Of a DNA stretch of 21,481 nucleotides, positions 7,235 through 21,481 are shown in pieces. The stretch comes from a virus. The position numbers and the translations under genes are program-made. Numbering within the stretch: position 1 is the stretch's first letter; each line of letters begins with the position of its first letter. Location: positions 1-21,481 of the IMG/VR virus record IMGVR_UViG_3300025168_000800; one strand, 5' to 3'. Below the pieces are notes generated by a model. The model saw only the letters and a list, made by a program, of their open reading frames with translations, was not told the origin of the DNA and did no database searches.

Positions 7235-7573
7235 TTACCACTCCCATCCCGTGTGTGGGGCAACTTTTTGGTTATTTGACGTCAGTTTAATTTCACGCTC
7301 ACTTAACCACTCATTAAACGCTCTTTGTGTTTGTTCAAAGTCCGAGTAGAGTAGTTTAAATTCAGACCATTTGTTGCGTGCGACAACTCGACCGTAATAA
7401 TAATCACCATTACCCAGTTTACAACGTGTAATTATTTGCCACATACGTTGTTTGGTAACTTCGTGTTCTTCACCTAGTTCTTCTAATGTTATTTTTGAGT
7501 TAGTCCATTGATCAAACATCTTTCTGTACCTGATCGAGTTTTGTTTCGCTTTTGTGTCAGAGATACCTTTCAT
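7235..7573 (-). CDS. Small helix-turn-helix protein
   Basis: A 112-residue basic protein. Residues about 20-50 (F-D-Q-W to I-I-T-R-C-K) fit a sigma-region-4-like helix-turn-helix: T-L-E-E-L-G-x-x-x-x-V-T-K-Q-R-M-W-Q-I-I. The C-terminus is charged and ends in aromatics. The start at 7573 overlaps the polymerase stop as ATGA and has AAGGAA 8 bases before it; a start at 7600 would overlap the polymerase by 31 bases without a better site. It is the last gene of the polymerase operon. It could be a transcriptional regulator; the target is unknown. Confidence 0.75.
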   Translation of the reverse strand: MKGISDTKAKQNSIRYRKMFDQWTNSKITLEELGEEHEVTKQRMWQIITRCKLGNGDYYYGRVVARNKWSEFKLLYSDFEQTQRAFNEWLSEREIKLTSNNQKVAPHTGWEW

Positions 7574-9438
7574 GATTTTATTTCCTTTGTTTCGCCCCAT
7601 GACGTTCCTAACTCTTGATCCACTAATAAAGGGACAGCAAGCTTTACACAGTTTACCATTACTCTTGTTACTGTGTCTGCCTGTTCTTTGCTCTCTATTG
7701 AAATGTCAACTTCATCGTGGACTTGTAGGTGCGGAACTATTCCTTCCTCCCACAGACCTATCATTGCTAACTTTGTCATGTCAGCCGCAGATCCTTGTAT
7801 TAAACGATTTAAAGCTTTGTAAGTGTATGACCGTTTAAGGTCATCCCCATATTTATCTTTTGCCTCTTCAAGAGGTAACGGTAGACTTCTTTCATATTTG
7901 CTTTCCCACAGATCAAAACGGCATCGCCTTCCTGCAAATGTTTTGATATATCCTCGCTCCATTGCTACTCTTGCGCATTGATCTTGTAGAGCGCGAATAA
8001 ACGGAACTTTAGCATGGTACTGTTGGAAAAGCTTTTCAGCTTCTGTATCATCTATTCCTAATTCTTTAACAAGTTTCTCTTTACCCATTCCATAGCTTAA
8101 ACCGAGATTGATAGTCTTGGCCTGTTTACGTGGTATATTTGCCATATCCGCAACGATCTGGTGGAAGTCTGCGTTCTCTTCCGTATAAAGTTTCACAGCA
8201 TCTTTTGCTCCAGTTAGATTCATCTGGTTAGCATAATGAACCGTTAGTCTCGGTTCTTGTTGCGAGTAATCAAACACTCCCCACTGACACCCTTCTTCGG
8301 GAATGAAGAGGGAACGAATTAAACTACCTATCTCAGGATCTCTCGCAGGAACCTGTTGTAGATTAGGATTGCTGTAACTAAACCGACCAGTAACAGTTCC
8401 TCCACGATCATTCCGCATGGGGTGTGCTTCCGCATGTATCCTTCCGTTGAAAGCATGGTCTCCGATCATTTTATCAATAAACGTAGTTCTGGCTTTATTA
8501 AGCTTCCGTGCTCTAACTATCAGCTGAGGCAGTTCATGTGAGTGACCCTCTAGCCAGTCTTTCTGGAAACTCGCCATACCTTTGGCTGTACGTGGAAACC
8601 ATATGCTATTCTTTTCAAAAATACTCTCTAAGGAGGCATTAGCCCACAGGTTTACATCTTTGCCGTACTTCCGCTTGATCTCTATTTGTATTTTCTGTTC
8701 CTCTGTAGAGAGCTTTTTACTAACTCTTTCAGCTTTTTCCTCATCAACTCTAACCCCTCTCCACCTCATTTCCAATAGTAGAGGGATCAACTTAGATTCC
8801 ACAGCAAATATTTTTTCTAAGTTTTGTTCTGCAAGCTCAACCTTTAGTTTATTCCACAACTTTAATGTTAAGGAAGCGTCCTGCTGACCATAAGGTCCAA
8901 CGTATTTAGCATGCAGTTTGTACATCTCTGACTTAGGGTTAATACCAAAAGCCAAAGCCGCACTTTTCAAAAGAGACTCATCTTTTCTCTCATCGCAATA
9001 CTCAACACCTAGATTATCTAATGAATAAGAAAACCTATTCTCGTTGAGTAAGGGAGCCGCAATAATCGTATCGAGTATTTTACCTTTTACAAGGACTCCT
9101 TCTCTCCTTAACCAGCCTACATCGTAGAGTGCATTATGAAACACTACCTCTCTCTTTGTAGAGCTAAGAAGATTAGTTAGCCATCGCAAAACAATACCTT
9201 CATCTAAATTACCACCGCCTTCATGACGAATTGGGAAATAGCCCTCCCAATCTTTCGTAGCAACACCAATACCTACAACATGTCCTCGACCTGTAGCCCA
9301 CCCTGGACCCGAGGTCATGAGGTGGGGATCGTAGGTCTCTAAATCTATAGCGACTGTTTCTGTCTCAGAGAACTGAGGGAAAAAATCAGGAACAGACCAA
9401 TCGCTTTTAGGAGGAAACAACGAGTTCTGTAAGATCAT
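7570..9438 (-). CDS. polA: Family A DNA polymerase with 3'-5' exonuclease
   Basis: A 622-residue replicative phage polymerase with proofreading but no 5'-3' nuclease domain, the usual length for phage PolA. Exonuclease motifs: D32-L-E34, N102/D106 (H-N-A-L-Y-D), and Y183-x3-D187. Polymerase motifs: A, D390-Y-S-Q-Q-E-P-R; B, R437-x3-K441-T-I-N-L445-G-L-S-Y449-G; C, Q-V-H574-D575-E576. The residue matching E. coli Pol I Phe762 is Leu445. Phages vary between Phe, Tyr and Leu at this site; the Leu form has been linked to slower, more accurate polymerases and proposed for slower or temperate lifestyles. It sits in the base-modification operon and overlaps its neighbours by four bases on each side. 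Confidence 0.97.
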   Translation of the reverse strand: MILQNSLFPPKSDWSVPDFFPQFSETETVAIDLETYDPHLMTSGPGWATGRGHVVGIGVATKDWEGYFPIRHEGGGNLDEGIVLRWLTNLLSSTKREVVFHNALYDVGWLRREGVLVKGKILDTIIAAPLLNENRFSYSLDNLGVEYCDERKDESLLKSAALAFGINPKSEMYKLHAKYVGPYGQQDASLTLKLWNKLKVELAEQNLEKIFAVESKLIPLLLEMRWRGVRVDEEKAERVSKKLSTEEQKIQIEIKRKYGKDVNLWANASLESIFEKNSIWFPRTAKGMASFQKDWLEGHSHELPQLIVRARKLNKARTTFIDKMIGDHAFNGRIHAEAHPMRNDRGGTVTGRFSYSNPNLQQVPARDPEIGSLIRSLFIPEEGCQWGVFDYSQQEPRLTVHYANQMNLTGAKDAVKLYTEENADFHQIVADMANIPRKQAKTINLGLSYGMGKEKLVKELGIDDTEAEKLFQQYHAKVPFIRALQDQCARVAMERGYIKTFAGRRCRFDLWESKYERSLPLPLEEAKDKYGDDLKRSYTYKALNRLIQGSAADMTKLAMIGLWEEGIVPHLQVHDEVDISIESKEQADTVTRVMVNCVKLAVPLLVDQELGTSWGETKEIKS

Positions 9439-9768: not shown

Positions 9769-10134
9769 TTACTTCTCCTCGCTGGTGTTTCCAGCATTAA
9801 TAGTTACTTCAGGATAAGAAATATCCTGATCCTCTTCGTCATGGTATTCATCTATAGCCGTTAAAATATGTTCTTCAGTTAATAATAAATACCTTCGCAA
9901 GTCTCTGATATCATCCAGTAGACCTTCATCTCCTACGTAAATTTTTCCTGCTTCAAATACATCCCACCCACACTTTTGGGCTTGATGCTCGACTCGATCG
10001 AACTTGCGTGCTAACATCATAAAAGCCCCGACACCTCCCCGTCTTTTCCAAGAATCGCCGTAAGATGTTTCAGCTTTTTTAAGAGCCTCTAAATCACTCT
10101 GTGCTGCTTTTTTCATAGTTTCCCATTTACTCAT
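9769..10134 (-). CDS. Nmad1 / DUF1599 nucleotide-modification-associated protein
   Basis: A 121-residue all-helical protein of the DUF1599 (Nmad1) family, seen near phage DNA-modification genes. The recognisable stretch runs from residue 25 to 85: Y-G-D-S-W-K-R-R-G-G, A-F-M-M-L-A-R-K-F-D-R, then D-E-G-L-L-D-D-I-R-D-L-R-R-Y-L-L. The Asp/Glu-rich helices resemble all-alpha nucleotide pyrophosphohydrolases, so a nucleotide-binding or -hydrolysing role is plausible. The family's activity has not, to my knowledge, been shown. The start at 10134 has GGAG 5 bases upstream and overlaps the thymidylate synthase stop by 8 bases. Its neighbours support a role in modified-nucleotide metabolism. Confidence 0.83.
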   Translation of the reverse strand: MSKWETMKKAAQSDLEALKKAETSYGDSWKRRGGVGAFMMLARKFDRVEHQAQKCGWDVFEAGKIYVGDEGLLDDIRDLRRYLLLTEEHILTAIDEYHDEEDQDISYPEVTINAGNTSEEK

Positions 10135-11173
10135 TAGCTTCTCCTTCTTTTGTTTTAGTGATATGTGACTGTTCACGTTTGAGGAGCCAAGATAGACAAG
10201 CCGCTCTCCAATCTAATGCTTTAATGTGGCAGAGGTTCTGGTACGCGCCATGGAAATTTTTGTGTTTGTAATAAGAGTAAACCACCATCATCGGGGCGGC
10301 AATATCTTTTAACACAGGGTTTTCCCAACTATCCCAAGTTTTAAAATCATCAGGCTCCGTATTGAAGAATCTTTCTAATTCTTGTGGTATGCTGTCGGTG
10401 TTTTTAAACAAAGGGATATGCTTATAGTCTTTTAAAGTATCATAAGGATTCTTTAGTTCGCTGAAGGTGTGTGGGTCTATGCTTAGATCCTTAACCTTAT
10501 CCCAAACAGGAGCCTCCGTGTAGACATGAAAACTATCACTAACCTGTCGATATACGCCAACACGAACACCGATAGCCGATGCCATATATTCTTGCAATAC
10601 TGACATATGAACCACGTTAGCACCATAGGCTCCCCACAGCATATCATTAGACCGATTACATACGGTCATATTCAGTTTGCCCTCGCGCACCTTAAAATAG
10701 ATATTAGTGTTACAGGGAACGTCTTTGCCATACCTATTTAAATCATATTTAGCATCCCACATCTGTAGAACAGCTCTACGATCGTTAGGATCTTTTTTCA
10801 GCATATTTATAATGAGAGGTAGTTGGTCCCTGCCGAAATAACTTTTCCACCGCCAACCGTAAGCCCCCCACAACGTTTCACCATCGTCAGAAAAATCCCC
10901 CATGGTTTTAACAAAATACGTTAAAGGTTTTAAATCCTTACGACCGTCTAACATCCAAAGACTTTCTATAAGATGAAAGAAAGGGTTAGCGTCTCTTTGT
11001 GGAATTAAACATACGCGCTCACACGGTTTATTATAAACAGTTGTTACGGGGTCTAATGCCTCGTAAGTCGTACCGTTACGCGTCTGTTGTACTCTATAGT
11101 TAACATCACTGTTAAATAAATCTATTCCTAAAAGTAGAGCATCGTTTACATTTCTTGCGTTAATTACTTTCAT
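10127..11173 (-). CDS. Thymidylate synthase homologue (TS or dUMP hydroxymethylase)
   Basis: A 348-residue ThyA-family enzyme that adds a one-carbon unit from methylene-tetrahydrofolate to a pyrimidine nucleotide. Key residues: Glu70 and Trp73, D-R132-R133, catalytic Cys154 (V-P-C), R174-S-N-D177, Asn186, and H216-V-Y218. Asn186 at the base-recognition site favours dUMP; dCMP hydroxymethylases have Asp there. The W-D-E-W segment before the Y-G motif of ordinary thymidylate synthases is missing; M-G-D-F-S-D-D-G-E-T-L-W-G is there instead, and the C-terminus lacks the usual Val end. With an ADDT gene two genes upstream, a 5-hydroxymethyl-dUMP product is a real possibility. Plain dTMP synthesis cannot be excluded. 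Confidence 0.9.
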   Translation of the reverse strand: MKVINARNVNDALLLGIDLFNSDVNYRVQQTRNGTTYEALDPVTTVYNKPCERVCLIPQRDANPFFHLIESLWMLDGRKDLKPLTYFVKTMGDFSDDGETLWGAYGWRWKSYFGRDQLPLIINMLKKDPNDRRAVLQMWDAKYDLNRYGKDVPCNTNIYFKVREGKLNMTVCNRSNDMLWGAYGANVVHMSVLQEYMASAIGVRVGVYRQVSDSFHVYTEAPVWDKVKDLSIDPHTFSELKNPYDTLKDYKHIPLFKNTDSIPQELERFFNTEPDDFKTWDSWENPVLKDIAAPMMVVYSYYKHKNFHGAYQNLCHIKALDWRAACLSWLLKREQSHITKTKEGEANE

Positions 11174-11391
11174 AAGGTTTCGTGGTATCCGTCTATAATT
11201 GCAGCGATAAGATAGCTTATTTCATTCTCGCCAAGTCCTGGAAGTTTCCGTCTTACAAAAGCTACCGCCATTTTATGTGTTGCAGGAACCTTTAGAAAGA
11301 ATGCCACCTCTAGAAACTGGGTGTAATGTATGTCCACCGAGTCTCCCCACTCTTCTAAAAGTTCTAATGAATATTCATTAAGTTTTCCCAT
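11170..11391 (-). CDS. Small protein between ADDT and thymidylate synthase genes
   Basis: A 73-residue helical protein. It starts 14 bases before the ADDT stop with GGAG upstream and overlaps the synthase start by ATGA, so it is translated with both. No domain is recognised. Its constant wedge between two modification genes makes it a candidate accessory protein. Confidence 0.72.
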   Translation of the reverse strand: MGKLNEYSLELLEEWGDSVDIHYTQFLEVAFFLKVPATHKMAVAFVRRKLPGLGENEISYLIAAIIDGYHETL

Positions 11392-12301
11392 ACTTACTTT
11401 CTCCTTCTACTAGATCTTCAATCATAGGAAGATCGTTATGTTTATAGATAGACCGTGTTCTGCCTTCGCTTTTTACCATTCTAGAATATTTATCAAACTC
11501 GCAAAGTCCTCCTTCTATCTCTCGCATTTCATAAGGTAGGTCTTTACGCTTAAACCACAATCTCCCTGAGACCGCACTATACAGTTCATTCATCTCATCA
11601 TTCCAGTTGTGACTTCGTTTTGAAAAAGATAAGTCTCTTCCTGTTAAACGATTGAGTCCTCGCATCGCTCCTGGTCCAGCATTGCCCCACGTTAATCGAT
11701 CCTTTGCGTTTTCTAAAAAATACGTCCATCGTAAATCAGTCACTACCTCGTAGGCCATGAATGGACCCATGTAGGGGTAATCTCTAAGAATACCCCATGT
11801 TTTCTCCAATGAGGATTCTTTATTATTTCTAGCTTCTTCTAGTGTGTCGGTGAGGTAGTTTCGATCGTTCCACATATGAGATATACACTCGGCAACCCCC
11901 GTGACTTTATTCATACCGTTGGGGGTTTTAACAATATAAGCACCTGTTACCCATTTTGGTTGCTTTGTGATTTCATCAACAGCTTTCTGTCTATCCCAGT
12001 TTAATAACAGGTCGTTCTCGATCAACGTTCTTCCTGTCTCTATTAGATTAAACCATCGGAAAATAACCGTTGCCATCAGAACTGCTGGGTCGTTTTTTAA
12101 GGGTACTCTGATATGTTTAGCAAACCACCGAGTCGTTCTATCATCTTCCCGATAAACTTGGCAAAACTTAAAGTTCTGTAGTATAGGATCCTCTGTCCAT
12201 GGGGCATCCTGTCCTAAGATTTCTTTTTTAAATCGAATTTTTTCTCGCTCTTCCTGCCAGTAACAATATCGATCGAGTTCTGCTCGGATAAATGTAGTCA
12301 T
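11378..12301 (-). CDS. aGPT-Pplase/ADDT-family thymine hypermodification protein
   Basis: A 307-residue protein of the alpha-glutamyl/putrescinyl-thymine pyrophosphorylase (ADDT, HMUDK helical-domain related) superfamily. These are thought to replace a phosphorylated 5-hydroxymethyl group on uracil in DNA with an amino acid or polyamine. Signature stretches: E-E-R-E-K-I-R-x-K-K-E (residues 17-27), P-W-T-E-D-P-I-L (34-41), F-x-F-C-Q-V-Y-R-E-D-D-R-T-T-R-W (44-59), Y-M-G-P-F-M-A-Y-E (177-185), W-G-N-A-G-P-G-A-M-R-G-L-N-R-L (205-219), and C-E-F-D-K-Y-S-R (267-274). The start at 12301 overlaps the methyltransferase stop (TAATG) with AAGGAAAAGG upstream. No P-loop kinase is fused or nearby. The clade and product are not determined. 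Confidence 0.88.
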   Translation of the reverse strand: MTTFIRAELDRYCYWQEEREKIRFKKEILGQDAPWTEDPILQNFKFCQVYREDDRTTRWFAKHIRVPLKNDPAVLMATVIFRWFNLIETGRTLIENDLLLNWDRQKAVDEITKQPKWVTGAYIVKTPNGMNKVTGVAECISHMWNDRNYLTDTLEEARNNKESSLEKTWGILRDYPYMGPFMAYEVVTDLRWTYFLENAKDRLTWGNAGPGAMRGLNRLTGRDLSFSKRSHNWNDEMNELYSAVSGRLWFKRKDLPYEMREIEGGLCEFDKYSRMVKSEGRTRSIYKHNDLPMIEDLVEGESKYGKT

Positions 12302-13221
12302 TACCTTTTCCTTAACACCCAAGCACAGTTGTTAGCATATTCGGGAAATGGTGCGGCGGCGGCTACGCGCAAGAACTGTCGACCAAACCGACTCTCAAGC
12401 ATCTCTACCTGTTCGGGCGACCACGCTCTAGGGTATCTTTTCACACTACTATGTAGAGGTATTCCATCAACAGAAGGCTCTACTTGTTCTTTCATAGCCT
12501 TACGAAGATTAGGTAGCTGTATAAAAGTTCCTGTAACATCTTCTATAATGAAGTTTCTTTCTAACTCTTCTTTAAGTTCTTGGAAGCCCCACTCGTAAAT
12601 ATGGTCTTCAGGTAGTTTGTCGTTAGAACCGTCATGATTAGGAGTAGAGATATACGCTAATGCATTAGGTCTCATTGCTCTAGCCGCATCATCTAACCAC
12701 GGACCAACAAACTCTCTATTCATGTGTTCAATAACTTCGGTGGACCAAAAGAAGTCTATACTCTCATCCTCTAGCTCATGAAAGATATTAAGTTTTTTCC
12801 CGTGTTCATCAAACTGAGGGACAGTTACATCGACTATTTTGAGTGTGCCATTAAAGTTTTTAAACCAAGTAGAGTTCACTAAAGGCTCGCCACCGTTAGA
12901 CCAGTAAGGGTTCTCTGCTTCACACGCAGGATCTATATCTGTTCCATAATACGAGCGAATAATATCAGTCTTCTTGACCACATAAGCCTTGTATAAATTT
13001 CTAAGTGCCCAACACTCTCCGCAACCCATTTCAAAAGTATCTAAGGGTCGGTCTAAGTTTTTAGCCTCACTGATGCATAAAGAGGAGATTTTATCGAATC
13101 GGCTCATATGGGCGAGTTCGTCAGGTCTCCAGTTTGCTAAAACTCCTGCCGAAGCAAGATCCATTCGGGTGTTTTTACTGTCGTTTTCATTAACGGTTAG
13201 TTTCTTTCTTATAGATGACAT
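12301..13221 (-). CDS. SAM-dependent class I methyltransferase
   Basis: A 306-residue Rossmann-fold methyltransferase. Motif I is F-E-M-G-C-G-E (residues 63-69), motif II Y-Y-G-T-D-I-D (91-97), and motif IV region I-D-F-F-W-S-T-E-V-I-E-H-M (155-167), typical of the Methyltransf_11/23 type seen in ubiquinone and sugar-modifying enzymes. It has no D/N-P-P-Y motif, so it is not a standard N6A/N4C DNA methylase. The start at 13221 has GGGAG upstream and overlaps the preceding gene by 13 bases; a TTG at 13239 is less likely. Its position next to ADDT suggests it may methylate a modified nucleotide, but a capsid, lipid or RNA target is possible. Confidence 0.88.
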   Translation of the reverse strand: MSSIRKKLTVNENDSKNTRMDLASAGVLANWRPDELAHMSRFDKISSLCISEAKNLDRPLDTFEMGCGECWALRNLYKAYVVKKTDIIRSYYGTDIDPACEAENPYWSNGGEPLVNSTWFKNFNGTLKIVDVTVPQFDEHGKKLNIFHELEDESIDFFWSTEVIEHMNREFVGPWLDDAARAMRPNALAYISTPNHDGSNDKLPEDHIYEWGFQELKEELERNFIIEDVTGTFIQLPNLRKAMKEQVEPSVDGIPLHSSVKRYPRAWSPEQVEMLESRFGRQFLRVAAAAPFPEYANNCAWVLRKR

Positions 13222-13709
13222 TGGCCTATCTCCCACCAAGTTGGTTTAGTTCTACCCTTTTCCCATTTAGCGTAACCTTTTTCATTAATAACATAATTAC
13301 GATAAGCGAGAATAGAGTCCTCGTTTCTGTACTCTTCTGGCATTGCCTGTGCTACCTCTGTCATAAAGCCTATTGGAATGTTCTTTGGCATGTCGTATAA
13401 CGCTTCACAGAATTTCCCCACACTCGCATGAGTGCGTTTGTAGCGGTAAGTGTATTCGTCACCTAACGCTATGAAGTGTCGATAAAGCCACGCGTAGTTT
13501 CCGCTACACTCTCTAACCCAACGAGTACATGGGTGATTCATATAAGCCTTCTTATATAAACCAGCCGCGTCTGCAAATTCATCTCCATCTAATAAACGAT
13601 GAGCTGTACACAACATCTGTGCCGTTTCTAAAGGCATTTTGACCAACATCTTATCGGGTTGCGCTTTAGCGGCTTCTACAGGGTCTTCACTAAAATAAAA
13701 TATATTCAT
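13209..13709 (-). CDS. Conserved phage protein, first gene of the modification operon
   Basis: A 166-residue protein of a phage family without a known function. The pattern is F-x-F-S-E-D-P-x-x-A-A (residues 3-13), then K-M-P-L-E-T-A-Q-M-L-C-T-A (residue 25 on), a central N-H-P-C-T-R-W-V-R-E-C, and Y-T-Y-R-Y-K-R-T-H. Conserved His, Cys, Asp and Lys suggest an enzyme or metal-binding protein. From memory similar proteins occur in many marine and enteric phages. It starts under promoter 13748-13777 with AGAAAGGAG 5 bases before the ATG, and leads the operon containing ADDT, synthase, Nmad1 and polymerase. Confidence 0.8.
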   Translation of the reverse strand: MNIFYFSEDPVEAAKAQPDKMLVKMPLETAQMLCTAHRLLDGDEFADAAGLYKKAYMNHPCTRWVRECSGNYAWLYRHFIALGDEYTYRYKRTHASVGKFCEALYDMPKNIPIGFMTEVAQAMPEEYRNEDSILAYRNYVINEKGYAKWEKGRTKPTWWEIGQCHL

Positions 13710-13783: not shown

Positions 13784-15280
13784 TTATATCTGGTAGTGGC
13801 GGGGCGTTTTAGGCTCAATTAGATATAGATTCTCTTTAGTTCGGGTTATCGCTACGTAAAAAACTCTGTTCTCATCATCAGGGTTTTGTTGGTAATTCTT
13901 ATAGACTCGTGTAGTTATGTCAGTAAGTAGCACTACGTTTGTAGCCTCTCCTCCCTTCGCCGCATGAATGGTTGACAACCGTATTCGGGGTTGCTTAGTT
14001 ATCTTCTCACCCCTACGTAACATCGCCCTTATGTAACTAATGTCACTAGGACTTAACAAAGTAAAAACGTCATACCATCTTCCGTCGGGTAGCTCAGGGA
14101 AATGGCTTTTCAAATCTTGATACTGTAGTATTGAGTTTGAATCTAACATATCAAGTTTCTTGGGTTTCTCAACTTTGATAAACTTTAATATGTTTGCGCA
14201 CTCAGTTAAGCCGATTGCGTCTCCCTTACCTAGACGTTCCCAAAAAATAACGGCTCTCACCTTGGCTTCTGAAATACTTGGTCGTCCTTTTACCTCGAAA
14301 AACCATCCTTCGTTTCTGCAGTATGCGTCTATATCCTCTAACAGATAATTAGTCCGTGCTAAAACTAACCAGTCCCCCTTCTCCATATCTACTAGCTCTA
14401 TGTTAGGCTCCCACCGAACTAATCCTTCTTCTTTTCGGGGAGTCCATTCTTTATGTATTCTCGATTGAACTTGCCCAATACATCGTTTAGCCAGTTCATG
14501 TACTGCAGACGGAACGCGGTAAGACTGTTTTAATATCATAGAATTTTTAGAATTGTTTATAAGATAGTCTACATCAGCCCCTGCCCATTTGTAGATAGCC
14601 TGATCATCGTCCCCTGCTACATAGATCTTTTTAGCTTTTTCTGCGACCTTACGAACCACCGCCCACTGCAAAGGAGACAAGTCTTGAGCCTCGTCTACAA
14701 ACATAACATCTAACGCCGGAACAGTTCCCTCTACCAAAAACTTGTGTAACATATCGGTATAGTCCACCAGCAGTCTGTCTTTCTTAAACAGCTCTAACCC
14801 TCTAGCAAAACGTTCTAACTCAAACCATCCCACAGCGTCCTCTACTTCATGCCATTGCTCTTTTAACGGTATGTTGCGAACCCTAGCTAAGTTCTCTATA
14901 AACGCTAATCGATCATCATGAGTCATGCCAAAGATATGTCCCTCGTCAGAGGTGGTTCTTCCTGTTAATCTTAAATTCATTTTTTCATTAAGATCTTTTA
15001 TGTCCGTATGGCTAACCACACTTTCCCGAGTCAACCCTAGTTGTCTGAATGCTAATGAATGTAGAGTTCTGAAGAAAGGTAAATCTCTATCACTAATATT
15101 AAACTTATTGACGGCTCTTTGTTTGCCTTCCGTTACCGCTTTCTTAGTGAACGTAAAGAACCCGATGTTCTCGGGTTGTGTCCCCTGCCCTAATTCATCC
15201 TCGATAAGACTGAGCAATGTAGTAGTTTTCCCTGTTCCAGGAGGTCCAAGAATAACTTGGGTGTGGGCTGGAAGAGTCAT
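13784..15280 (-). CDS. UvrD/Rep-like SF1 DNA helicase
   Basis: A 498-residue superfamily 1A helicase that should unwind DNA 3' to 5' using ATP. Motif I G-P-P-G-T-G-K-T-T (12-20), Ia F-F-T-F-T-K-K-A (41-48), II V-D-E-A-Q-D (195-200), III G-D-D-D-Q-A-I-Y-K-W (223-232), IV S-Y-R-V-P (near 253), V T-I-H-A-A-K-G (near 439), VI Y-V-A-I-T-R-T-K (near 476). It lacks the long inserted domains of bacterial UvrD, as in short phage helicases. Its start overlaps the AlkB stop by ATGA. It is the last gene of the replication operon and probably the replicative or repair helicase. Confidence 0.95.
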   Translation of the reverse strand: MTLPAHTQVILGPPGTGKTTTLLSLIEDELGQGTQPENIGFFTFTKKAVTEGKQRAVNKFNISDRDLPFFRTLHSLAFRQLGLTRESVVSHTDIKDLNEKMNLRLTGRTTSDEGHIFGMTHDDRLAFIENLARVRNIPLKEQWHEVEDAVGWFELERFARGLELFKKDRLLVDYTDMLHKFLVEGTVPALDVMFVDEAQDLSPLQWAVVRKVAEKAKKIYVAGDDDQAIYKWAGADVDYLINNSKNSMILKQSYRVPSAVHELAKRCIGQVQSRIHKEWTPRKEEGLVRWEPNIELVDMEKGDWLVLARTNYLLEDIDAYCRNEGWFFEVKGRPSISEAKVRAVIFWERLGKGDAIGLTECANILKFIKVEKPKKLDMLDSNSILQYQDLKSHFPELPDGRWYDVFTLLSPSDISYIRAMLRRGEKITKQPRIRLSTIHAAKGGEATNVVLLTDITTRVYKNYQQNPDDENRVFYVAITRTKENLYLIEPKTPRHYQI

Positions 15281-15864
15281 AAGCCACTTCTAAACGTTAA
15301 ACTAACTCGTCTTTTTGCTCCAAAATCTATCGAAGGAATCGAGTGAGTGCTCGTCATTTGAGAGCGTCCATCGAACATATACACGTCACCATCCTCTAAT
15401 AGAAAGTTTCGAGTAACTGGAGTCCACTTGGTTTTAAAATCTAGTGTCTCACTTGTGTTACTTTCTTCTTTAATTTCCCTGCCATACTCACGCCACTCTA
15501 ATAACCTAGTTCCTCCAAACGAAATACCTAAAACAATATCGTCTAAGGTAGGTACTGTGTCTGAGTGGTGAGGGATACACACATCTCCTGTTTCATATAA
15601 ACCACATAAACAAAAAGTAAACTCTATAGGACGATCCAGTAGTTTTGAAGCCCACTTCTCTGCTTTAATTTTAATGTATTTTATTGGTGCCGTCCATGGC
15701 TCAGGTTTGTATAGTTTCCCTGCGTAGTTAAACTCAGAAACACCATAGCCCTTGGTCGGCCTACCCTGGACTAGTTCATTATTGAACTCGCGTACCGTAG
15801 GTCGATCCCACCCAATGATGTAAGGGTCATCTCCTTCAAATACATTTTTAGCGAAAGTTTTCAT
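15277..15864 (-). CDS. AlkB-like 2-oxoglutarate/Fe(II) dioxygenase
   Basis: A 195-residue AlkB-type oxygenase. It oxidises alkyl groups on nucleic-acid bases using iron and 2-oxoglutarate. Iron ligands are H100-x-D102 and H174; the 2-oxoglutarate/substrate arginines are R186 and R192 in R-V-S-L-T-F-R, the same spacing as E. coli AlkB. A hydrophobic I-V-L-G-I-S-F-G-G-T-R follows the first ligands. It overlaps both neighbours by ATGA, within a primase-helicase operon. The simple role is repair of 1-methyladenine and 3-methylcytosine in phage DNA. Action on a modified base is an alternative given the nearby modification genes. Confidence 0.93.
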   Translation of the reverse strand: MKTFAKNVFEGDDPYIIGWDRPTVREFNNELVQGRPTKGYGVSEFNYAGKLYKPEPWTAPIKYIKIKAEKWASKLLDRPIEFTFCLCGLYETGDVCIPHHSDTVPTLDDIVLGISFGGTRLLEWREYGREIKEESNTSETLDFKTKWTPVTRNFLLEDGDVYMFDGRSQMTSTHSIPSIDFGAKRRVSLTFRSGL

Positions 15865-19404: not shown

Positions 19405-20847
19405 ATGAAGTATAAATTTAAAACAGAACCCTATGATCACCAGTTATTAGCATTAACTAAATCCTGGAATAAGAAAGAATACGCTTATTTTATGGAAATG
19501 GGGACGGGTAAATCTAAGGTACTAATAGACAATATTTCTTTATTATATGATAAAGGAGGAATCAATGCGGCTGTTATAATAGCTCCTAAAGGAGTGTATA
19601 GGAACTGGTCAGAAAAAGAAATACCCGCACATATGCCAGACCACATAGAAAAACATATTGCAGTGTGGACTCCGTCACCTAACTTAAAACAAAAAAGAGA
19701 ACTAACAAAATTATTTGAAGTAAGGCATGATCTGAAAATATTAATTATTAATGTAGAAGCTTTCAGCACTAAGAAAGGTGTAGCTTTTGTTGAAAAGTTT
19801 ATACTCTCGCACAACGTATTAATAGCTGTTGATGAGTCTACTACGATTAAGAATCCGCGAGCACAAAGAACAAAGAACCTATTGAAATTAGCAGTTAACA
19901 GTAAGTATCGTAGAATCTTAACAGGCTTTCCAGTTACTCAGTCACCCATGGATTTATATAGTCAAAGCACTTTCTTATCTCCGGACCTATTAGGATACAC
20001 CTCTTTCTATTCTTTTCAAAACAGATATGCACAGCTTGTAAATAGAAAAATGGGGGCTAGAACGTTTAGACAGGTTGTTGGTTATCAAAACTTAGAAGAA
20101 TTAACTCGAAATGTAAATGAGTTCTCCTATAGAGTGCTAAAAAAAGAATGCTTAGATCTTCCGGATAAAGTATATCAAAGACGAGAGGTAGAACTAACCT
20201 CAGAACAAAAGAAGGTGTATAAAGAACTTCAAGACTACGCTACGGCTGAGTTAGACTCTCGCGACATCGTTAGTGTTACTTCGGTGCTTACTCAGATATT
20301 ACGACTACACCAAGTGGTCTGTGGTTTTGTTAAGAACGATGAAGGAATTGAAGTCGAAGTTAAAAGTAATCGTTTAGATGAACTAATAGATATATTGCAA
20401 GAAGTACAGGGTAAAACAATCATCTGGGCTAACTACCAATATGATATTAAAAGAATATTAAAAACATTACACAACATCGCAGGGGTTGATAGTGTAGCTA
20501 CTTACTATGGTGAAACCCCCGATGAAGAACGTCAAGAAATAATAAGAAGATTCCAAGACCCTAACTCTGCGTTGATCTATCTTATTAGTAACACACAAAC
20601 AGGGGGTTACGGTATCACCCTCACCGAAGCAAGCAACGTTATCTATTACTCTAATAACTATGACTTAGAAAAACGGTTACAGTCGGAGGATCGTGCTCAT
20701 CGAATAGGGCAAACCAACAAGGTAACGTATATTGATTTAGTTGCTAAAGGAACCGTTGATGAAAAAATTGTAAAAGCGTTACGCAACAAATTAAACCTCG
20801 CCCAAGAAGTATTGGGCGACGAAAAATGGAAAGACTGGATCGGTTAG
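19405..20847 (+). CDS. SNF2-family helicase/ATPase
   Basis: A 480-residue two-lobed SF2 ATPase of the SNF2 (DEAD/DEAH-like) family that moves on duplex DNA. Motif I M-E-M-G-T-G-K-S (30-37), motif II A-V-D-E-S (141-145), motif III region L-T-G-F-P-V-T (172-178), and the C-terminal S-E-D-R-A-H-R-I-G-Q-T (motif VI, near 430-440) with T-V-D-E-K-I. Motif II reads D-E-S-T, a DExx variant. It is the only plus-strand gene here and has AGAAAGGAT upstream of the ATG. Its stop overlaps that of the next gene in opposite orientation by four bases. Phage SNF2 proteins may aid replication, recombination or transcription; the role is not known here. Confidence 0.94.
   Translation: MKYKFKTEPYDHQLLALTKSWNKKEYAYFMEMGTGKSKVLIDNISLLYDKGGINAAVIIAPKGVYRNWSEKEIPAHMPDHIEKHIAVWTPSPNLKQKRELTKLFEVRHDLKILIINVEAFSTKKGVAFVEKFILSHNVLIAVDESTTIKNPRAQRTKNLLKLAVNSKYRRILTGFPVTQSPMDLYSQSTFLSPDLLGYTSFYSFQNRYAQLVNRKMGARTFRQVVGYQNLEELTRNVNEFSYRVLKKECLDLPDKVYQRREVELTSEQKKVYKELQDYATAELDSRDIVSVTSVLTQILRLHQVVCGFVKNDEGIEVEVKSNRLDELIDILQEVQGKTIIWANYQYDIKRILKTLHNIAGVDSVATYYGETPDEERQEIIRRFQDPNSALIYLISNTQTGGYGITLTEASNVIYYSNNYDLEKRLQSEDRAHRIGQTNKVTYIDLVAKGTVDEKIVKALRNKLNLAQEVLGDEKWKDWIG
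20799..20818. terminator. Possible hairpin terminator within SNF2 3' end
   Basis: Perfect 7-bp stem CGCCCAA / TTGGGCG with a 6-base loop. On the minus strand it is followed by AGGTTTAATTT, a weak T-tract. It could end the leftward virion transcript, since the converging genes leave no intergenic space for a terminator. Confidence 0.35.
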
Positions 20848-21481
20848 GCAGAATTAAAATTCATTAGTCTAGCCAAAGCATCTTCTTGAGAGGTTCCCAT
20901 AACGTTAGACATGGCCTCTTGTTGTACTTCAGGTTTTTGTAAATTCTGCATGATCATTTCACGCATTACATCATTTTGAGAAATGTCACCACCACTAGCA
21001 AATCCAGGAGGCGTAGCGTTCCGGTACTGATAGTTTGTAGTATCTCTACCAAAGTTTGGTCGATTGGTTTCCTCATTAGCTAGATTTTGTCGTCCACCCA
21101 TTGTTGCTTGTCCACCCATGTTAGCATACATAGGTCCACCACTAGCAAATCCAGGAGGGGCAGCATTTCGATATTGATAGTTTGTAGTATCTCTACCAAA
21201 GTTAGGACGGTTGGTTTCCTCATTAGCTAGATTCTGACGTCCACCCATTGGCCCACCAAATGCAAATCCAGGAGGGGCAGCATTCCGGTATTGATAGTTT
21301 GTAGTATCTCTACCAAAGTTTGGTCGGTTAGTCTCTTCATTAGCTAGGTTTTGTCGTCCACCCATTGGCCCACCAAATGCAAATCCAGGAGGCTTAGCAT
21401 TTCGATATTGATAGTTAGTAGTGTCTCTACCAAAGTTTGGTCGGTTAGTCTCTTCATTGGCTAGGTTTTGTCGTCCACCCA
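20844..21481 (-). CDS. Repeat protein of 39-residue units (partial, runs off right edge)
   Basis: The 3' end of a gene whose reading frame stays open to the window edge. It encodes tandem 39-residue units starting M-G-G-R-Q-N-L-A-N-E-E-T-N-R and ending A-P-P-G-F-A-[F/S]-G-G-P. Four units are seen, with G-F-A anchors about 117 bases apart; one spacing is 147, from a 10-residue insertion (Y-A-N-M-G-G-Q-A-T-M). Synonymous differences between units show old duplication with protein-level selection. The Gly/Pro-rich linkers and G-F-A-S-G-G motif recur in virion internal or tail proteins of marine phages, so a structural role is likely. The C-terminal 60 residues are non-repetitive and Met/Gln/Glu rich, probably helical. 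Orientation agrees with a leftward structural block beyond the edge. Confidence 0.8.
   Translation of the reverse strand, partial: GGRQNLANEETNRPNFGRDTTNYQYRNAKPPGFAFGGPMGGRQNLANEETNRPNFGRDTTNYQYRNAAPPGFAFGGPMGGRQNLANEETNRPNFGRDTTNYQYRNAAPPGFASGGPMYANMGGQATMGGRQNLANEETNRPNFGRDTTNYQYRNATPPGFASGGDISQNDVMREMIMQNLQKPEVQQEAMSNVMGTSQEDALARLMNFNSA

Follow-up and report, generated by a model that had tools for sequence, protein, structure and literature searches.

The virus record IMGVR_UViG_3300025168_000800, analysed here as a window of 21,481 bp, carries on its minus strand a cassette of putative DNA-base-modification genes centred on a thymidylate-synthase homologue, a protein of the Pfam family HMUDK_hel (PF18723) and a HEN1-like methyltransferase. 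The explanation that we consider best, with about an even chance of being right, is that this is a kinase-free thymine-hypermodification cassette, in which alkylation replaces phosphorylation and converts 5-hydroxymethyldeoxyuridine (5-hmdU) into 5-methoxymethyldeoxyuridine (5-methoxymethyl-dU). In the proposed mechanism the thymidylate-synthase homologue would make 5-hydroxymethyl-dUMP, which would be built into the phage DNA as 5-hmdU. The HMUDK_hel protein would recognise and present 5-hmdU in DNA, presumably in a complex, and the methyltransferase, using S-adenosylmethionine (SAM) and a divalent metal, would methylate the 5-hydroxymethyl oxygen. The resulting 5-methoxymethyl-dU would be an uncharged mark that may hinder host restriction.

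The three proteins are encoded at 12301–13221 (class I SAM-dependent methyltransferase, 306 aa), 11378–12301 (HMUDK_hel protein, aGPT-PPlase clade 1, 307 aa) and 10127–11173 (thymidylate-synthase-superfamily protein, 348 aa). The stop codon of the methyltransferase gene and the start codon of the HMUDK_hel gene overlap by one base, as TAATG. The methyltransferase occupies the slot of the 5-hmdU kinase in M6-like phages. An earlier, sequence-only reading of this DNA had proposed a thymine-modification cassette without a kinase, and the gene content of the whole group of related contigs supports that proposal. Its further suggestion that the methyltransferase or the accompanying genes of undefined function supply a novel step is supported, group-wide, for the methyltransferase; the other small genes do not clearly belong to the core.

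No kinase is recognised among the window genes scanned, as the sequence-only reading had stated, and the P-loop protein encoded upstream is a UvrD helicase. The kinase families PF18748 and PF13671 each lack a match, at E up to 1, in all 34 contigs of the methyltransferase type, which comprise a set of 24 (21 of them 53–84 kb long) and 10 found among another 31. With the same threshold PF18748 is detected in 3 of 3 known phage records (one over cut-off) and PF13671 in 9 of 9 (four over cut-off, some of the matches weak), the nine including AXL3, which has no HMUDK_hel protein. Among the 31 additional contigs PF13671 matches six, two of them over cut-off; five are of a type with a TET-associated glycosyltransferase (TAGT), with a strong match in contig G039, one is unclassed (G034), and none is of the methyltransferase type. 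Five contigs were joined from pieces, and one of these, of 61,952 bp, looks complete on account of its 127-bp terminal direct repeat. Across all five, and with a pattern that does not detect non-canonical P-loops (for instance in SNF2 proteins), UvrD is the sole Walker A match assignable to a P-loop enzyme. Eight other Walker A matches (four in G006, two each in G010 and G017, none in G003 and G012) were judged by eye to be spurious or not to belong to an enzyme, and one each in G006 and G010 is the C-terminus of the HMUDK_hel protein. This Walker A-like C-terminus (EGESKYGKT) was rejected as a P-loop, as it is found in only some members and is absent from the four kinase-partnered proteins aligned.

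ADDT is found in none of the 24 contigs, a search that has no genome-level positive control, although Pfam detects ADDT in the AN14, PaMx11 and Pam3 proteins; a phosphate on 5-hmdU would thus have no known use. A TAGT glycosyltransferase was also considered for the window group and rejected, since none of the 24 contigs has a match over cut-off (control: 4 of 4 TAGT-type contigs) and a sub-cut-off match in G013 is accompanied by a stop. Five contigs contain no relatives of the FkbM protein and group 1 glycosyltransferase of locus L209, of TAGT, or of the AN14 ADDT, radical SAM and PLP proteins.

The sequence-only reading had taken the central protein for an ADDT protein, which does not stand. 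It matches PF18723 with an E-value of 8e-42 (described as '5-hmdU DNA kinase helical domain', the name being Pfam's) and phrog_2396 with 8e-62; it has no PF18724 (ADDT) match at E up to 1, and BLAST comparison to two ADDT proteins stays at chance level. In phage AN14 the ADDT protein (AN14_10) and the PF18723 protein (AN14_14) are encoded by two separate genes, and the ADDT of PaMx11 is likewise another gene. AN14_14 directly follows the kinase AN14_13 (PF18748, 8e-18), and the same order of kinase and PF18723 gene is found in PaMx11, Pam3 and Sonora. As the central protein thus belongs to a family named as the helical partner of the kinase, the missing kinase is all the more striking. The predicted structure of the window protein is good (pLDDT 87.5). 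A Foldseek search with this model gives no significant match (best E 0.87), and VIA-align ranks a queuine salvage enzyme with a Z-score of 11.0, PaMx11 gp46 (8z2n, a 5-PmdU glycinyltransferase) and an archaeal 8-oxoguanine glycosylase with 10.6 each, and many DNA glycosylases next; such Z-scores are, for a helical protein, suggestive rather than proof. The model suggests a helical, DNA-glycosylase-like protein, into which a role as base-flipping scaffold would fit.

The position next to HMUDK_hel is occupied by different enzymes in different loci. The methyltransferase lies directly upstream of PF18723 in 76 of the 80 IMG/VR loci retrieved by a search with the window protein, and in the other four the PF18723 gene starts less than 400 bases from the locus start, near a contig end. 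Conversely, PF18723 follows the methyltransferase in 189 of the 189 fetched loci that hold the latter (80 distinct methyltransferase open reading frames (ORFs)). A kinase and the methyltransferase occur together in none of 238 PF18723 loci, which represent 128 distinct sequences, of which 82 have the methyltransferase, 24 a kinase and 22 neither. A broader survey of 80 HMUDK_hel loci, with neighbour classes assigned within flanks of at most 5 kb by small profiles built for this analysis, shows the methyltransferase in 33, a kinase with ADDT in 14, a kinase without ADDT in 11, TAGT in 12, FkbM together with a glycosyltransferase in 7 and none of these in 3. Exactly one neighbour class is present in 77 of these 80 loci, without any mixing of kinase, methyltransferase, TAGT and FkbM; the 80 are the best by likeness to the PaMx11 protein, do not form an unbiased sample, overlap the other locus sets and include several near-copies among their contigs. 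Example neighbours match their Pfam families with E-values of 2e-13 for FkbM, 3e-21, 3e-18 and 4e-16 for TAGT, and, weakly, 8e-5 for the glycosyltransferase. A tree of 88 HMUDK_hel proteins gives nine changes for kinase versus TAGT, two for the methyltransferase and one for FkbM, counts that are approximate because 20 of the 85 inner branches are open; a single origin of the methyltransferase is not rejected on this tree (p-AU 0.43). For kinase versus all other rows, the well supported branches alone force six changes.

The usual phosphorylated route, in which the host or a phage gene that escaped recognition would provide the kinase and the methyltransferase would act in a later decoration step, appears unlikely in view of these exclusive neighbour classes and of the two kinase families missing from all 34 contigs. 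It would agree with an unchanged function of HMUDK_hel, to which the 54 alignment columns that are invariant over four kinase-partnered and four methyltransferase-partnered proteins may point, and the kuttervirus Guerrero also has a PF18723 gene without an adjoining kinase. A wider reading of the exchangeable neighbours, to which we give somewhat less than an even chance, is that HMUDK_hel is a general reader that flips out 5-hmdU for interchangeable enzymes, namely a kinase, TAGT, FkbM with a glycosyltransferase, or a HEN1-like O-methyltransferase that would yield 5-methoxymethyl-dU, a sister enzyme yielding 5-methoxymethyl-dC in AXL3-type phages. From the exchange of neighbours we infer that the family name HMUDK_hel is too narrow.

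Two of the other locus types have features of their own. In L209 (5822–8102) and in L205, L206, L208 and L211–L213 an FkbM-type methyltransferase, an Nmad1-like gene and a group 1 glycosyltransferase lie near PF18723 and the thymidylate-synthase homologue; no kinase was found in these seven contigs, and the cassette is a candidate for a glycosylated and O-methylated thymine. PF18723 is accompanied by a TAGT relative, without a kinase within the flanks, in L198, L203, L207, L214, L224, L228, L234, L235, L256, L260, L263 and L265, a gene content that suggests glycosylated 5-hmdU; the contig of L214 encodes an AAA_33 protein elsewhere.

The thymidylate-synthase homologue matches phrog_5131 (1e-112) and is 44% identical to the AN14/M6 protein. 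Its best relative of known structure is the CMP hydroxymethylase MilA (5jnh, 5e-40), the best thymidylate synthase following with 1e-24. Alignment bears out what the sequence-only reading had noticed: an Asn occupies the base-specificity site (Asn186, codon at 10616–10618), which is Asp in MilA and in AXL3-type proteins, and the W-D-E-W motif is missing; the catalytic Cys is present. Asn is found at this site in 80 of 80 distinct window-type proteins, 9 of 9 of the TAGT type, 6 of 6 of the FkbM type and 4 of 4 unclassed ones. Among kinase-type rows it is present in 20 of 22, and of the remaining two one has Asn by eye and one has no proper thymidylate-synthase frame. WDEW is found in none of the 121 rows. 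These residues and matches identify the protein as a putative dUMP-type pyrimidine 5-hydroxymethylase of the thymidylate-synthase family.

The methyltransferase matches Pfam Methyltransf_23 with an E-value of 1.4e-6, and 19 of 19 family members match the same family at E up to 10. A profile of the phage family matches HEN1 with 2e-4 (4xcx) and 9e-4, and its segments EVIEHM and DHxYEW align onto the HEN1 motif (4xcx/5wy0). In the window protein the putative metal site consists of Glu162, Glu165 and His166 in the segment EVIEH (12724–12738) and of His207 (codon at 12601–12603); the metal ligands of human HEN1 are given as E132, E135, H136 and H181 (PMC10781085). All 19 members of one alignment keep the quartet unchanged, as do all 12 proteins of another that includes AXL3; among the 80 distinct ORFs E..EH is found in 77 and DH[IV]YEW in 78. 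In VIA-align superpositions the predicted structure scores Z 14.3 with HEN1 3htx (rmsd 3.3, 189 residues aligned) and 14.2 with 4xcx. By alignment the enzyme appears to carry the Glu-Glu-His-His metal site of the HEN1 RNA 2'-O-methyltransferases. A PADLOC match to mad2 (2e-6) was put down to general class I similarity, and the FkbM enzyme of the sister clade was dismissed as a relative for want of a real profile match. A scan of bacterial genomes gave 118 pattern matches, none of them related, and hence provides no evidence of a host or prophage.

Among 50,697 phage records the window methyltransferase has five matches, with 23–26% identity: AXL3 twice, PW916 and two uncultivated Manatee Spring phages. 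The AXL3 gene order is methyltransferase, NTP pyrophosphohydrolase, P-loop protein and thymidylate-synthase homologue. In an AXL3-type set of 23 loci (AXL3 and 22 IMG/VR loci; L184 and L271–L292) a thymidylate-synthase homologue with the dCMP-like Asp and without WxEW is present in 22, L286 showing none in its short stretch; E..EH is present in 23 of 23 methyltransferases, and PF18723 in none of the 23 loci searched. This compact block may make an alkylated 5-hydroxymethylcytosine. Of 37 restriction enzymes, only 2 are reported to cleave AXL3 DNA, and the recognition sites of both consist of A and T alone (PMC7504290). Because the methyltransferase family travels with a hydroxymethylase-like thymidylate-synthase homologue of either base type, the hydroxymethyl oxygen is the favoured acceptor.

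The same association argues against 5-hmdU being the final base, bound by HMUDK_hel, and the methyltransferase having another target, such as the RNA ends on which true HEN1 acts; so does the one-base overlap of the methyltransferase and HMUDK_hel genes. We regard this alternative as rather unlikely, while noting that a HEN1 metal site suits an RNA ribose too and that no HD nucleotidase is recognised among the window cassette genes scanned, whereas one is present in AN14, PaMx11 and L209. The methyltransferase fold could also transfer another group to 5-hmdU or to the base, such as carboxymethyl from carboxy-SAM (Cx-SAM). A precedent is CmoX, described for cytosine in Synechococcus phage S-B43 (PMC12783734); CmoA is found in none of the 24 contigs, although a host could still supply Cx-SAM, and we consider such a transfer quite improbable.

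Several observations weigh against methylation of 5-hmdU by a HEN1-like enzyme in a kinase-free cassette. The phage is uncultured, and the base chemistry is a prediction. Since some positive-control matches are weak, a divergent kinase could be missed. The co-occurrence counts are not independent, because synteny within one lineage reflects shared ancestry. An AAA_33 protein is encoded over cut-off elsewhere in contigs G039 (TAGT type) and G034 (unclassed), so that exclusivity holds for neighbourhoods, while among whole contigs it extends to the methyltransferase type alone. The Guerrero locus shows that a missing adjacent kinase is not peculiar to the window group. The likeness to HEN1 is also limited: the top profile match of the methyltransferase family is an uncharacterised enzyme (7e-6), to which HEN1 (2e-4) is weak and second; three of the 80 distinct ORFs lack E..EH; the methyltransferase model is of middling quality (pLDDT 71); in a Foldseek search small-molecule methyltransferases lead, with HEN1 outside the best 50 rows shown; and in VIA-align HEN1 lies 1.4 Z units below the top row, METTL6 (15.7), amid many tied class I enzymes. 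In the AXL3-type set the distal-His pattern is printed for 20 of 23 loci, 19 of 23 have a P-loop protein, and the restriction resistance of AXL3 may come from 5-hmdC alone.

If the methoxymethyl reading is true, direct O-alkylation would be a second chemistry beside the phosphorylated route in a marine phage group, 5-methoxymethyl-dU would likely be a base new to DNA, and HMUDK_hel, whose name makes it a kinase domain, would be recast as an exchangeable module for base presentation. A limited literature search, pairing '5-methoxymethyl' with 'phage', found no 5-methoxymethyl base of phage DNA.

The remaining genes of the cassette are more variable. The block from 13209–13709 to 9769–10134 that the sequence-only reading described is confirmed in its order, with ends that abut or overlap: the gene at 13209–13709, those of the methyltransferase and the PF18723 protein, a 73-aa ORF (11170–11391), the gene of the thymidylate-synthase homologue and the gene at 9769–10134. 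The first of these, described earlier as a conserved unknown, belongs to a phage family (phrog_624, 3e-53) that has a Pyr_excise match (PF03013, 8e-8). The 73-aa ORF, for which a profile search had been proposed, has no family match near significance and is recognised in only part of the group. The protein encoded at 9769–10134, formerly labelled Nmad1, has no Pfam or NCBIfam family match, although it shares 43% identity with Pam3_54, a protein deposited under the label 'nucleotide modification'. The Pyr_excise-family gene, the 73-aa ORF, an AlkB-like gene and the Nmad1-like gene are each unrecognised in some relatives that keep the methyltransferase, PF18723 and the thymidylate-synthase homologue; the Nmad1-like gene, for instance, was not found in L151, L152, L159 and L161. 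Their apparent absence may reflect divergence, because some of these positions hold an unlabelled ORF of about the same length (L159, L161, L231). The recognisable core, judged by sequence, is thus the methyltransferase, PF18723 and the thymidylate-synthase homologue. This coming and going of optional genes would suit a partly decayed cassette that has lost a former kinase and now yields only hmdU or ordinary dTMP. Such decay is highly improbable, as the methyltransferase is free of internal stops in 25 of the 25 contigs searched and the putative catalytic residues are retained in most members of a family that spans about 52–98% identity.

The core is flanked upstream by the UvrD-type helicase (13784–15280), which has a canonical Walker A motif, and downstream by a family A DNA polymerase (PolA, 7570–9438), both conserved and on the minus strand; the order UvrD, methyltransferase, PF18723, thymidylate-synthase homologue and PolA is retained across the methyltransferase-type loci displayed. 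The same operon includes an AlkB-type 2-oxoglutarate-dependent oxygenase (15277–15864) that is less conserved than its neighbours, and in L070, L072, L073 and L075–L077 the AlkB-type gene is located beyond SNF2. At the window end an ORF (20844–21479) encodes near-identical tandem repeats (GGRQNLANEETNRPNFGRDTTNYQYRNA..PPGFA). A scan of promoters and terminators stays at about shuffle level (25 versus 26.0 and 10 versus 8.6, respectively).

The window PolA is most similar, as compared by identity only, to those of phages 023Pt_psg01 (53%), DSL-LC04 (49%) and HTVC023P (48%). The two nearest named phages, 023Pt_psg01 and DSL-LC04, have no such cassette between helicase and PolA. In pelagiphages of the HTVC023P type (clades V, VIII and IX) a thymidylate-synthase homologue and aG/PT-PPlase1 near PolA have been described and likened to M6 (PMC9599517). 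The main text of that paper does not contain the word 'methyltransferase' and uses 'kinase' only for a histidine kinase; relative to this text the pair is known and the methyltransferase is new.

The closest known counterpart is the M6/PaMx11-type cassette, which shares with the window the branch of the thymidylate-synthase homologue (42–45% identity), PF18723 (31–42%) and the order of kinase slot, PF18723, thymidylate-synthase homologue and PolA. The phosphorylated route to modified 5-hmdU, with its kinase step, has been described for M6, ViI and phi W-14 (PMC6449724). Unlike the window group, in which neither was found and a HEN1-like methyltransferase fills the slot, the M6/PaMx11-type cassettes contain a P-loop kinase and ADDT. 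The AXL3 block resembles the window in its homologous methyltransferase (26% identity), the same putative metal quartet and an adjoining thymidylate-synthase homologue without WxEW, and differs in the Asp-type specificity site, the missing PF18723 and a P-loop protein in most members. With the HEN1 small-RNA 2'-O-methyltransferases the phage enzyme shares the class I fold and the aligned Glu-Glu-His-His site; in contrast to HEN1, this 306-aa protein, 17–19% identical in structural alignment, adjoins a putative DNA-base cassette.

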